Of a stretch of DNA of 6,785 nt, positions 3,426 to 6,780 are shown one piece after another. How positions within the stretch are numbered: position 1 is the stretch's first letter; each line of letters begins with the position of its first letter. The stretch lies in assembly GCA_937902565.1 (NCBI GenBank), contig CALFMX010000161.1, forward strand, positions 1 to 6,785, written 5' to 3'. The translations under genes were made by a program, and so were the position numbers. Below the pieces are notes generated by a model. It was not told where the DNA came from, searched no databases, and worked only from the letters and a program-made list of their open reading frames with translations. This stretch comes from an uncultured Spirochaetales bacterium. Lineage in GTDB: Bacteria; Spirochaetota; Spirochaetia; Sphaerochaetales; Sphaerochaetaceae.

Positions 3426-3740
3426 ATGCAATGCAATGAATGTGGACGGCAGCTGACCAAGCTGCCCTTCATCTTGGACGACAGTGAGATCGCCGACATG
3501 CAACTGGCGATCGACAAGATCAATACCGCACAGACCGCCCTGAAGGCTGAGGTGTACGCATCCTACCGATTCGAGCAGGACAGGGACATCTACGCCTACT
3601 TCAAGGCGGTCTTCGACGAGATGGCAGAAGGCAGGTTCCTGTATGCCACCTGGGAACGCCGCGTCCGTAGCCATTACAATTACCCGGAGGGCGAGCTTCT
3701 GGTGATCAACGGCGAGTGCTTCTCCCATGAGGGCTCGTGA
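3426..3740 (+). CDS. Small protein of unknown function with CxxC and CxxH ends
   Basis: This is a 104-residue, mostly charged and helical protein. I do not recognise its family. Visible features are a CxxC at residues 3-6 (MQCNEC), a long helix-prone segment from about 18 to 75, and a CFSH (CxxH) at 98-101 close to the C-terminus. The four potential ligands C3, C6, C98 and H101 could form a zinc site that joins the two ends, but this is inference. There is no signal peptide or membrane segment. It starts 11 bases after the fibre stop, and its own TGA overlaps the ATG of the Cys-rich gene by one base, so the three genes are co-transcribed and probably co-translated. Possible roles are a fibre-assembly chaperone, a minor tail protein, or an accessory or recognition factor for the radical SAM enzyme. 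None can be chosen from sequence alone. Confidence 0.8.
   Translation: MQCNECGRQLTKLPFILDDSEIADMQLAIDKINTAQTALKAEVYASYRFEQDRDIYAYFKAVFDEMAEGRFLYATWERRVRSHYNYPEGELLVINGECFSHEGS
3729..3733 (+). promoter_or_regulatory. Ribosome binding site and TGATG overlap before the Cys-rich gene
   Basis: GAGGG lies 6 bases before ATG 3740, inside the end of the preceding gene, whose TGA (3738-3740) shares a base with that ATG. A GTG at 3737 directly before the ATG is in frame and would add one residue; the ATG is preferred. The TGATG junction indicates translational coupling. Confidence 0.65.
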
Positions 3741-4387
3741 TGGGAACCTATAATGATATCAGAAGCCGCTTCGAGGCAATTCAGGAGGCCTTCCGCGTTA
3801 ATGGCTACCAGCGCTACGACAACTATTATGTGTTCTCCCCGCCTGCTGGCTTTGCCATCGGCCTTCCCATGAAGGCCTCGGACATGAATAGCATGAAGGA
3901 TACGCTGCAAGGGGGCACGCGAGCGCTTTTGTACACCACCTACCCCATCTCCTCGGTTGCAACGGGAAGTCTGATCAGCGCCAACCTGCTGAGCCAGATC
4001 GACCAGTACAAACAGGACATCAATGATCTGCGCGGCTGTGCCAACTGCAGCAACACCTGCACCTCGACGTGCTACAACGGCTGCCACAACTGCACCGGAG
4101 GGTGTACGGGTTCCTGTACCGGGTGCAGCGGCTGTACCGGTTGTAGTGGATGCTCAGGCAACTGCTACAGCTGCAAAGGGGGACTGTGGTGTGTTTCGTG
4201 CCATGGGTGCAGTGGATGCGGAGGATGTCGCGGCTGTGGTGGATGCACCGGAAATTGCCAAAGTGCCTGCTCGGGCTGTACCTCCTGCAGTACCAACTGC
4301 AACGCCAGCTGCAACGTGAACTGTTCGGGTGCATGCAAGAATTCCTGCTCGAGCGGTTGCTCGAACTCATCACGCATTGGAGGCTGA
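3740..4387 (+). CDS. Cys-rich repeat protein, candidate radical SAM substrate in a tail operon
   Basis: A 215-residue protein in two parts. Residues 1-99 contain no cysteine and are soluble and mixed helical, with an aromatic patch (YQRYDNYYVF, 23-32) and a 'KASDMNSMKDTL' segment (45-56) resembling the helix of many phage structural proteins. Residues 100-207 hold 31 cysteines, nearly all spaced by 3 or 4 residues, separated by Gly, Ser, Thr and Asn. There is no Asp, Glu, Met, Phe or Pro after residue 99. The only longer gap is CKGGLWC at 145-151, which holds the sole Trp. The gene overlaps its upstream neighbour by one base and ends 1 base before the radical SAM gene. Cys-repeat proteins next to SPASM radical SAM enzymes are known RiPP precursors that receive thioether bonds, so modification here is likely but unproven. 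The position behind a fibre gene and the long N-terminal domain suggest a virion part. An alternative is an unmodified metal-binding or disulfide-rich protein. Confidence 0.85.
   Translation: MGTYNDIRSRFEAIQEAFRVNGYQRYDNYYVFSPPAGFAIGLPMKASDMNSMKDTLQGGTRALLYTTYPISSVATGSLISANLLSQIDQYKQDINDLRGCANCSNTCTSTCYNGCHNCTGGCTGSCTGCSGCTGCSGCSGNCYSCKGGLWCVSCHGCSGCGGCRGCGGCTGNCQSACSGCTSCSTNCNASCNVNCSGACKNSCSSGCSNSSRIGG
4037..4360 (+). repeat. Cysteine-codon repeat tract (CxxC / CxxxC units)
   Basis: The tract encodes residues 100-207 of the Cys-rich protein, with a TGC or TGT codon every 9 or 12 bases. Spacing in order is 3,4,4,4,3,4,4,3,3,3,3,4,3,6,3,3,3,3,3,3,4,4,3,3,4,4,4,4,4,4. The 3-spaced units cluster around the centre and the 4-spaced units toward both ends. 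TGC and TGT alternate irregularly and the intervening codons vary, so this is not a recent perfect tandem duplication; the spacing appears to be kept by selection. Confidence 0.85.
4379..4383 (+). promoter_or_regulatory. Ribosome binding site setting the radical SAM start
   Basis: GGAGG lies 5 bases before ATG 4389, within the last codons of the Cys-rich gene. The reading frame is open further upstream to an ATG at 4329, but those 20 codons lie inside the Cys tract and lack a ribosome site. The protein beginning MLIPFREPGLF has the usual distance to the CxxxCxxC motif. Confidence 0.8.
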
Positions 4388-4388
4388 T

Positions 4389-5645
4389 ATGCTCATTCCC
4401 TTTAGAGAACCAGGGTTGTTCAACGTGACGCTGAACACCACCGAGAACTGCAACCTCAGGTGCACTTACTGCTATGAGGTGCACAAGAGAAGAAGGACCC
4501 TCTCGATGGAGGATGCAAAGGCCTTCATCGACCACATCCTCACCGACCCCGATCCTGCGGGTTTGTTGGATGATCCTGATCCGGTGTTCCGCAAGGCATA
4601 CCAGAAAGGGCTGGTCGTCGATTTCATCGGTGGCGACAGCTTCATGGATGTGCCGTTCCTGGACGAGATCTGCTCCTACACCCTTGCCAAGGTGATGACC
4701 ACCGACACTCCCAATGCCAGGAACTGGCGGGGCAAGCTCCATTTCTCGATCTCCACGAACGGCACGCTCTTCTCCGAGCAAGCAAGGCGGTTCTGCGAGA
4801 AATACAAGGACCTGTTGCTGATGGGCATATCGCTGGATGGGTGCCCTACCATCCATGATGCAAACCGGGTGTTCCCTGACGGTAGTGGTTCGATGGGAAG
4901 CATCATCCGCCACTGGCCATGGTATAAGAAGACCTTCCCGATCCAGTCGATGCAGACCAAATCCACCGCGAACCGCCAGAGTATCTCCTACCTGTACGAT
5001 TCGCTGGTGTATCTGCACGAGGAGCTGGGAATCCGGTACATCAACCAGAACTTCATCATGGAGGATACGGGGTGTACTGAAGCTGACTATAAGGAACTGG
5101 ATTGCCAGATGGAAAAGTGTACCGCCTATGTGCTTGAGCATCGCGGCGACCTGTTCTGGAGCATGCTCAGCAAGGAGCAGTTCGGTTATGCACACCTGTC
5201 CACAGGGCCTGACTGGGACTGTACCGGCCACTGCGGAAGCGGGGCCATGCCCGCACTCTCGGTGGACGGCAGGATCTATCCGTGCATCAGATGGCTGCCC
5301 CACACCCAGGTCGACAAGGCCGGTTTCATCGTCGGGACCGCCAAGGAGGGCTTCACCCACAAGGAGAACTTCCTGAAGGTTCGCGAGGGTGCCTACCGTT
5401 CCAATTGCTCTCTGGATGAGAAGTGCAGGAAATGCGAGGTGGAGAGCGCCTGCTCGTACTGCATCGGAGGTTGCTATTCGGAGTTCGGCGAGTTCAAACG
5501 GACGACCTACATCTGCGAGATAACTAAGCTGATGGTCAAATGGGCCAGAAGGTACTGGGACGAGTACAACCGGCTTGAGGGGTTGGATCCGATCGACTGG
5601 GCTACCGAAGCCCGAGAGAAAGGGAACAGGCATGAGATCATGTAG
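4389..5645 (+). CDS. Radical SAM/SPASM peptide maturase
   Basis: A 418-residue enzyme. The radical SAM signature CNLRCTYC places C21, C25 and C28 to bind the [4Fe-4S] cluster that cleaves S-adenosylmethionine. Further barrel motifs follow: FIGGDS at 79-84, in the place of the usual GGEP; SISTNGTL at 120-127; and GISLDG at 146-151, followed by HDANR. The C-terminal third is SPASM-like: C282 then GRIYPC at 294-299, then C346-x2-C349-x5-C355-x2-C358-x3-C362 and C376, enough for two auxiliary clusters. C278 and C340 are additional. Only about 20 residues precede the CxxxCxxC, so no N-terminal peptide-recognition domain is fused. Enzymes of this design form thioether or carbon-carbon links in peptides, and a family acting on Cys-repeat targets is described. 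The substrate is inferred to be the Cys-rich protein one base upstream. It is a cytoplasmic enzyme, the last gene of the operon, and has no visible frame damage. Confidence 0.92.
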   Translation: MLIPFREPGLFNVTLNTTENCNLRCTYCYEVHKRRRTLSMEDAKAFIDHILTDPDPAGLLDDPDPVFRKAYQKGLVVDFIGGDSFMDVPFLDEICSYTLAKVMTTDTPNARNWRGKLHFSISTNGTLFSEQARRFCEKYKDLLLMGISLDGCPTIHDANRVFPDGSGSMGSIIRHWPWYKKTFPIQSMQTKSTANRQSISYLYDSLVYLHEELGIRYINQNFIMEDTGCTEADYKELDCQMEKCTAYVLEHRGDLFWSMLSKEQFGYAHLSTGPDWDCTGHCGSGAMPALSVDGRIYPCIRWLPHTQVDKAGFIVGTAKEGFTHKENFLKVREGAYRSNCSLDEKCRKCEVESACSYCIGGCYSEFGEFKRTTYICEITKLMVKWARRYWDEYNRLEGLDPIDWATEAREKGNRHEIM

Positions 5646-5745: not shown

Positions 5746-6780
5746 TCAATGGCCACGAAACAAATCATCAAGAAATGAGACTGAGGGATTGTTTTTAGTT
5801 TCATGGTGTTCATCAATTGAGTATTTGGGGAACCCATTTTTCAAAGGATTGAGGTCGTTGATCTTTGACTGTGCCCATTCCATCCATTTTGAGTTTTCAC
5901 TATCCGACTCTGCAGCCTGGTCTTGTACTTGATTCTTGACATATTCAACATAATTTTGAATTTTCTTCATCTGGCTATATGCCTCAGAGTCTGCAATTAG
6001 CTTCTCATATCGTTTTGCATCAAGTCTCTTTAATCGTTCTTCCTCAAGCTTTCTGGCTTGTTCCAATTTCAATCTTTGTTCTCGCTCAAGAGCCAGGATA
6101 GTTTCATTGCTACTTTGTATTGCGACATAAATGAAACCCAACATTATTTCTTTGATTGAAGCCTCGATGAGTTGCTTGCCTCGATCTTCCCAGGATTGAT
6201 ACACCCTCTTGCCATCATTAATTGATAAAAGCAATCGACCAGTAGCGGTAGGGATGTATCTATATTTTGGCACTCTCCCATAATGGTGATCCTCTTCATA
6301 GGCATTGCGTTCTTTTTCAGTCAATGGAAATCTCTTATTGGTGAAAGGCTCAATAATGGCAAAGTATATTCTTTGCCCAAACAGATTCACAAACATACGA
6401 GCGTGGGGGGAAGCATCTTCCTTTTCAATTGAAAAATCCCATTTCCGTGCTTTAAAACCTTGAAGAAGAGTTTCCATCAAAAAGGCAGCTCTTAAAGCGC
6501 AACTATCAGTAACATCAATTGCCAATGTATCACGATAGTTAGTGGACCGTAGAGTATTTTTATTCCGTGTCTGTGATATTAGAAATTTCTTGACCATAGG
6601 ACTGGTGATATCTTGCTCGGACACAAGCACCATTGGCTTTCTAGTTTGTTCGGCCTGTAATGTTCTGGAAGCAATCTCCTGGATTTCTTTGTCTTTTATC
6701 TCAATATCTGGATTGTTGAAGATTTCAGAAGGTGGCGTACAATAAAGTTCGCAATTTAGAGGTAGATTGAAAAAGGTCAT
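5746..6780 (-). CDS. Coiled-coil-containing protein of unknown function, possibly 5'-truncated by the window
   Basis: 344 residues from ATG 6780, but the frame stays open to the window edge. Only five bases precede that ATG and they carry no ribosome site, so the true start may lie outside. Residues 1-90 are mixed. Residues ~90-220 look like a folded alpha/beta domain, with RAAFLMETLLQGF at 97-109, a 'WDFSIE' strand at 114-119, 'QRIYFAIIEP' at 136-145, 'PTATGRLLLSI' at 177-187 and 'SWEDRGKQLIE' at 196-206. Residues ~228-262 are a strongly charged helix rich in Glu, Arg, Lys and Leu, likely a coiled coil, followed by further helix to about 310. From memory, this resembles a family of uncharacterised bacterial proteins of accessory regions with the same W-strand/TGRL/W-D order and a charged C-terminal helix, whose longer members have an extra N-terminal region. 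No function is known to me. Low GC and the opposite strand set it apart from the phage genes; it could be a host gene beside a prophage or a cargo gene. Confidence 0.8.
   Translation of the reverse strand: MTFFNLPLNCELYCTPPSEIFNNPDIEIKDKEIQEIASRTLQAEQTRKPMVLVSEQDITSPMVKKFLISQTRNKNTLRSTNYRDTLAIDVTDSCALRAAFLMETLLQGFKARKWDFSIEKEDASPHARMFVNLFGQRIYFAIIEPFTNKRFPLTEKERNAYEEDHHYGRVPKYRYIPTATGRLLLSINDGKRVYQSWEDRGKQLIEASIKEIMLGFIYVAIQSSNETILALEREQRLKLEQARKLEEERLKRLDAKRYEKLIADSEAYSQMKKIQNYVEYVKNQVQDQAAESDSENSKWMEWAQSKINDLNPLKNGFPKYSIDEHHETKNNPSVSFLDDLFRGH

Follow-up and report, generated by a model that had tools for sequence, protein, structure and literature searches.

We think it probable that the DNA analysed here carries a cassette of a phage tail module in which a radical SAM/SPASM enzyme cross-links a cysteine-repeat protein and so gives the tail fibre a rigid tip or accessory. 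With a little less assurance, we consider it likely that tailed phages of many kinds, including the jumbo phage SPN3US, staple a Cys-repeat fibre tip into a covalent rod, an assembly step that has not been described before. To our knowledge, radical SAM maturases have been known for peptides and enzymes, not for virus particles. The window (the whole stretch that we analysed, 6,785 bases) covers bases 1-6785 of contig 161; the genome is incomplete.

The three genes of the cassette and the fibre-like gene before them (Table 1) are co-directional and lie in the order fibre-like protein, small protein, Cys-repeat protein and enzyme, with a gap of 11 bases, an overlap of 1 base and a gap of 1 base between successive ORFs. 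A preliminary description of this DNA had placed a 31-cysteine gene one base before a radical SAM/SPASM gene, and the ORF coordinates (4387 and 4389) agree with it, as do the 11-base gap and the 1-base overlap with its statement that a fibre-like gene and a small gene precede the pair with gaps of at most 11 bases. The single overlapping base is 3740, where the start of the Cys gene meets the stop of the small gene, and the GGAGG ahead of the enzyme's ATG sits within the Cys gene. The upstream gene had also been described as a tail fibre gene. Its position and the tail-module setting of a homologous prophage (see below) agree with this, but the protein itself has no family match in NCBIfam, Pfam or PHROG searches; the fibre label that we use for it is derived from its position and from the tail matches of the preceding genes in that prophage. 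The structure model of the small protein (mean pLDDT 91) has antiparallel helices after a CxxC motif, and look-alikes of its gene occur near the pair in other phages, with weak alignment among them.

Table 1. Coordinates of the fibre-like gene, the cassette genes and their parts in the window.
Feature	Position	Strand	Remarks
Large fibre-like tail protein, 1105 aa	97..3414	+	Stop TAG; last large tail-module gene; label from position
Small third partner, 104 aa	3426..3740	+	Stop TGA; GGAGG upstream; N-terminal CxxC
Cys-repeat protein of 215 aa with 31 Cys; predicted target and part of the tail tip	3740..4387	+	ATG start, TGA stop
N-terminal helical domain, residues 1-99; predicted docking/attachment	3740..4036	+	Block pLDDT 72-88
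Cys-Gly-Ser-Asn-Thr repeat, no Asp/Glu	4037..4384	+	Cys mostly 3 or 4 residues apart
Radical SAM/SPASM enzyme of 418 aa; predicted to mature the Cys repeat	4389..5645	+	ATG start; family matches, motifs
CxxxCxxC motif, SAM-binding iron-sulphur cluster	4449..4472	+	Motif, alignments
SPASM cysteines, residues 282-376, auxiliary clusters	5232..5516	+	Invariant in alignments

In the enzyme, the CxxxCxxC motif (residues 21, 25 and 28) and the SPASM cysteines (residues 282, 299, 346, 349, 355, 358 and 376) are invariant in alignments of 26 and of 12 sequences. The protein matches the Pfam family Radical_SAM (PF04055, E = 2.5e-07), and of the NCBIfam families TIGR04115, that of the CXXX-repeat maturases, fits it best (E = 3.1e-66), at a score of 224.3 bits that misses the family's cut-off of 350. 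Further NCBIfam matches are to PapB (NF047865, E = 1.3e-36) and the SCIFF maturases (TIGR03974, E = 3.2e-19), and among the PHROGs phrog_1802 matches it (E = 2.8e-34). A profile of the enzyme family matches a sole solved structure, 5WGG/5WHY (E = 6.4e-30), which we take to be CteB, a thioether-forming maturase. Thioether formation is the chemistry of both CteB and PapB.

All 31 cysteines of the neighbouring protein lie at residue 100 or later, spaced by 3 residues (15 times), 4 residues (14 times) or 6 residues (once). The repeat that they form is mostly Cys, Gly, Ser, Asn and Thr, and contains no Asp or Glu. Its predicted structure has pLDDT below 50, compared with block values of 72-88 for residues 1-100; structure comparison gave no confident fold match for the N-terminal helical domain. 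Compared with the TIGR04117 target family of NCBIfam, the protein gives a weak match (E = 0.041). Across 36 repeats from phages (see below), Asp and Glu make up 3.5% of residues, although some repeats are not acid-poor, as in L013, with 24 Asp/Glu in 215 residues (about 11%). The Cys spacings pooled over these 36 repeats total 1175, comprising 901 spacings of 4, 226 of 3, 45 of 5 and 3 of 2; on these counts we set aside a polyglycine helix with Cys on one face as a model of the repeat.

IMG/VR contigs contain near-identical cassettes, as do genomes filed under Sphaerochaeta, Sphaerochaetaceae or Spirochaetes. On a 277-kb Sphaerochaeta contig, the cassette is part of a prophage with genes for terminase, portal, head protease, major head protein and minor tail protein upstream, then a weak tape-measure match and tail proteins, and then the fibre, small, Cys and enzyme genes; a serine-type integrase gene lies further downstream. 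The genes downstream of the cassette vary between prophages. In a survey of 392 genomes from the phylum, six had a match at E ≤ 1e-40. Four of these (the window's own genome included) are from the window's family and have the 31-Cys gene adjoining the enzyme gene, a fifth (G332) has a fragment of the gene, cut off by the end of the contig, with small genes next to it that resemble lysis genes by eye, and in the sixth (G390) the system is of the cell type, with a 68-aa Cys peptide and genes for an ABC transporter. Both genes of the pair are under purifying selection. In comparisons with related prophages, the dN/dS values run from 0.044 to 0.068 for the Cys gene (7 of 7 comparisons, with identical values for L005 and L014) and from 0.051 to 0.076 for the enzyme gene (6 of 7 comparisons), a range from which we left out the value of 0.268 for L018 because its enzyme match stops at residue 325. 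With dN/dS this low, the Cys and enzyme ORFs are not chance ORFs. We also considered the Cys protein as a host-range or specificity part of the tail, but its 91% identity to the counterpart in one related prophage (L003), versus 74% for the fibre, argues otherwise.

To see how far the pairing extends, we used 101 viral loci gathered by motif scans, so the rates given here are conditional on those scans. ORFs were scored by an enzyme model, and the threshold of at least 200 was reached in 64 loci; the 37 below it were not counted. Clustering, for which about 70% identity across the final 330 residues was required, gave 36 clusters, which became 35 when L156 and L185, being one contig, were merged. 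We defined a Cys-repeat ORF as having at least 9 Cys in a chain of which at least half is Gly, Ser, Thr, Ala or Asn. Such an ORF lies within 3 kb of the enzyme gene in 31 of the 35 clusters. All 36 of these ORFs share the strand of the enzyme gene; the rest of these loci, 272,807 bases read on both strands, contains none. The four clusters without one are L006 (whose enzyme gene is interrupted), L183, L223 and L222 (whose contig ends within the enzyme gene). When the search was reversed, using the Cys-repeat protein P0157 as the query, the enzyme was present in 7 of 7 loci (L159 and L160 are copies). The analysis shows that the pairing is general and recurs in unrelated phages. In the 37 loci below the threshold, enzyme matches are distant, broken or absent, and several of these loci have another kind of Cys repeat.

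A scan of viral contigs for GC[S/T] repeats gave at least 120 stretches among the matches listed, each short (about 1-15 kb), and one of the 120 listed, L061, has the enzyme; it is from the same contig as L155. By a simple rule, 41 of the stretches have a Cys-chain ORF; many of these are plain (CSG)n runs, which we take for chance frames. At least six (L056, L121, L124, L136, L144 and L145) encode real-looking Cys-run proteins with a shared N-terminus and a Cys at every third residue, and there is no radical SAM enzyme in the stretches concerned (about 1-15 kb each), so a run of Cys is not in itself a sign that the enzyme is present. The existence of these phage proteins, together with the capacity of CxxC and CxxxC repeats to bind metals or form disulphides, favours the possibility that disulphides or bound metal hold the Cys repeat together as a structural part of the tail, and that the enzyme acts on another target, for instance the fibre or a host molecule. 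We regard this as unlikely, because a Cys repeat is so regularly within 3 kb of the enzyme gene and because the enzyme's best NCBIfam family is named for a CXXX-repeat target.

The preliminary description had suggested looking at whether the pair sits beside tail fibre genes in other genomes, and we found that it does lie beside tail genes. In 23 of the 27 clusters tested, a neighbouring gene matched a PHROG 'tail' family at E ≤ 1e-3, a figure that comes from hand-picked genes and is not an unbiased rate. These neighbours were long genes, most of them no farther off than 4 kb and none beyond about 7 kb (the farthest are in the window-type cluster, tested in the L014 prophage, and in L012, at about 6.4 kb). 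The 27 clusters are drawn from the 31 with a Cys-repeat ORF; L186, from which only the Cys protein was run against the PHROGs, and the SPN3US-type clusters L207, L211 and L212 are outside the count. The families matched are baseplate wedge, tail fibre, central fibre J and tail proteins, and the tested neighbours in L178, L008, L013 and L155 gave no PHROG tail match. The phages with the pair beside tail genes have siphophage-like, myophage-like and jumbo gene sets. For example, the gene order in L154 is baseplate J, further genes, a Cys fusion, radical SAM, an unknown gene, radical SAM/SPASM and tail sheath, so that the cassette is inside the tail operon, flanked by baseplate J and tail sheath. 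In L158, the cassette is between a large tail protein gene and genes that are holin- and amidase-like by eye.

In several phages the repeat is part of a longer, fibre-like or Gly-rich protein. L186 has a 568-aa fibre-like protein with the repeat at its C-terminus, in L154 collagen-like stretches precede the repeat in the same protein, and in L201 and P0157 the repeat is joined likewise to fibre-like sequence. Because Pfam names none of the L186, L154 and L201 proteins as a fibre, this label is our reading of their sequence and position. The L186 protein matches phrog_6085 at residues 443-531, which is its Cys part (E = 2.7e-14), and also matches a PHROG virion structural family (E = 1.1e-06). 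Ahead of the repeat, the joined proteins have short 'ADxLxG'-type motifs, which presumably resemble those of phage fibres. In L191, whose enzymes are below the score threshold, a Gly_rich_2 domain (PF21722, E = 6.7e-12) is joined to a Cys repeat of a second kind. This junction recalls the gp38-type fibre-tip adhesins of tailed phages, which have a low-complexity Gly-rich tip; unlike those adhesins, the Cys repeat here is accompanied by a dedicated modifying enzyme. The PHROG families corresponding to the window enzyme (1802, phage radical SAM domain-containing) and to the Cys part of the L186 protein (6085, unknown function) have labels that give neither a tail role nor a mutual link.

A search of a phage collection with the ChrisDB enzyme gave 62 records, mostly from Erwinia and Salmonella jumbo phages, and in 61 the identity is at least 60%; with residues 1-57 of the SPN3US Cys protein, 54 records matched. 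Some of the matching records are duplicate GenBank/RefSeq entries. SPN3US has two Cys ORFs between gp167 and gp165/164/163; in record JN641803 they occupy 143,828-144,220 and 143,413-143,817 on the minus strand, corresponding to 7097-7489 and 7500-7904 of locus L025. Its record annotates neither gene: the first has no feature, and the second is overlain by SPN3US_0166 in another frame. According to the accessible parts of two papers on this phage (PMC5694885, PMC10052503), gp168-gp170 are present in virions and are tail fibre or baseplate candidates, and gp168 is essential as judged by an amber mutant; the accessible parts of the SPN3US proteome literature do not mention gp163-gp167. We argue that virion proteomics would overlook a protein that lacks annotation, has modified cysteines and offers few sites for trypsin; Lys and Arg are nearly absent from the repeats. 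Papers on jumbo phages name radical SAM genes without a tail role in the parts accessible to us (PMC5468394, PMC6143709, PMC8066314, PMC11898562). Within the accessible open PMC literature (including PMC7411985 and PMC6807378), a scope outside which preprints and most subscription papers fall, we found no link between radical SAM chemistry and phage tails.

The window pair is like the TIGR04115/TIGR04117 systems in having a radical SAM/SPASM enzyme beside a protein with short, regular Cys spacing, as do most of the viral clusters (31 of 35), but its target is long, lacks an export signal, lies in a tail operon and has Cys at every third residue as well. Similarly, the enzyme is like PapB, the SCIFF maturases and CteB by its sequence and profile matches. 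PapB-type ranthipeptides have a Cys-x3-Asp/Glu acceptor pattern, and the window repeat, lacking Asp and Glu, does not follow it; the window also differs from the PapB, SCIFF and CteB systems in having no exporter and in that its product is predicted to be structural. Since the NCBIfam relatives of the enzyme are peptide maturases, the cassette could be a phage-carried RiPP system, whose product, resembling a ranthipeptide or sactipeptide, would be released to act as a bacteriocin or superinfection factor and would not belong to the particle. Relatives of the cell type have exporter genes, as seen in G390 and also in L010, which is filed as a phage but has tatA/tatC-like genes and a Cys protein with a twin-arginine start. 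On their gene content, these two loci indicate that homologous enzymes serve cell-type systems too. Nevertheless, we find a released peptide improbable for the phage pairs. In contrast to sactipeptide and ranthipeptide systems, none of the five window genes matches an exporter or protease family in NCBIfam or Pfam, and export signals are lacking from the 36 phage Cys proteins: none has RR in its first 20 residues, and only one, from L157, has an N-terminal hydrophobicity that reaches that of L010 (2.1 versus 1.87). These proteins are 64-568 aa long (35 of the 36 have at least 127 aa), and in six clusters (L158, L164, L170, L172, L173 and L216) the repeat precedes a similar region of about 110 residues, so that this region is not a usual leader peptide. 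The joining of the repeat to fibre-like sequence in relatives also argues against release. The preliminary description had named, as contrary to its interpretation, homologous pairs located mostly away from phage genes with exporters and proteases; pairs away from phages with exporters were found at two cell-type loci, G390 and L010.

Accessory genes commonly sit at the end of a tail module, and the genes after the cassette differ between prophages, but it is very improbable that the cassette is a moron, an accessory block settled there by chance, in view of the gene overlap on its fibre side, dN/dS of about 0.05, the same setting in unrelated phage types, the position of the L154 cassette inside a tail operon and the fusions of the repeat to fibre-like sequence.

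Taken together, these comparisons support the phage-tail interpretation of the pair that was given in the preliminary description. From them we infer that the Cys protein is in the particle, that its bonds are formed and that it has a role in infection. The steps that we propose for the stapling of the tail tip are, in order of falling confidence, as follows. First, the Cys protein would be a tail component bound via its helical domain, as a separate chain here and within the fibre where the two are fused. Second, the enzyme would modify the Cys protein in the cytoplasm, ahead of assembly. Third, the bonds would be Cys thioethers; because acidic acceptors are absent from the window repeat, any thioethers formed would most likely be to backbone carbons, of Gly, Ser, Thr or Asn. 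Fourth, the product may be a stiff rod that resists protease and reduction. Fifth, our guess is that the small helical protein aids docking or assembly.

Annotation hides key genes of this kind, as both of the SPN3US Cys genes show. If our interpretation is true, the tail tips of several kinds of phage are stapled covalently, which would put radical SAM chemistry to a new use and would explain many phage radical SAM genes that are now listed as accessory. Very stable protein rods could then also be made by a new route, and the idea is testable in genetically tractable phages.

The fibre protein of the prophage L003 (L003:5709-9026) is 74% identical to that of the window, and the Cys proteins of the two are 91% identical. 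The place after the cassette, occupied in the window by a 344-aa gene, is filled by different genes in other prophages.

Cys-repeat genes are missed or mis-framed in several phage records. The record of Salmonella phage SPN3US omits two of them (L025:7097-7489 and L025:7500-7904), and its annotated gene SPN3US_0166 (L025:7573-7908) is an open reading frame that overlaps a Cys-repeat gene in a different frame. We found the same situation in the Kwan record at L027:5224-5553. In Erwinia phage ChrisDB, a minus-strand reading frame is annotated over the Cys-repeat gene at L009:5130-5513; the next Cys-repeat gene is annotated, as gp187.

Some radical SAM genes are interrupted at the CxxxCxxC motif. 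Intein-like inserts split the genes at L155:2362-4737 and L157:11094-13436, a label based on matches to PF14890 and LAGLIDADG_3, with the PF14890 score in L157 lying below that family's cut-off. In a viral contig of 195 kb, the radical SAM gene (L006:9410-11455) also carries an insert in its CxxxCxxC region, for which no Pfam name was obtained, and no Cys-repeat reading frame was found at this locus under the rule we applied (at least nine Cys, and at least half of the chain Gly, Ser, Thr, Ala or Asn).

Some phage contigs carry Cys repeats of a second kind, either (CTCNCNY)n or (CPCNCNF)n, and as many as three radical SAM genes lie close to them. In one contig, L191, a Gly-rich domain and a repeat of this kind are joined in a single protein. 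A separate phage protein family has a common N-terminus and Cys at every third residue; the stretches examined around its genes lack a radical SAM gene.

Locations of features discussed in the text
Feature	Location	Strand	Remark
344-aa gene after cassette	window 5746-6780	minus	
Second Cys-repeat kind	L188-L190, L191, L226, L228-L245		not every one of these loci
Cys-every-third-residue family	L056, L121, L124, L136, L144, L145		
704-aa radical SAM protein	L247:3847-8161 (G390)		
68-aa peptide with CxxC repeats	L247:3847-8161 (G390)		
ABC transporter and IS66-like transposase genes	L247:3847-8161 (G390)		judged by eye

A cell-type relative occurs in G390, a genome from the same phylum as the window. 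At another locus (L010:2222-6270), in a record classed as phage, a gene for a twin-arginine Cys-repeat protein lies next to a radical SAM gene and to genes resembling tatA and tatC. Because these genes occur together, L010 is probably bacterial DNA despite its filing as phage.
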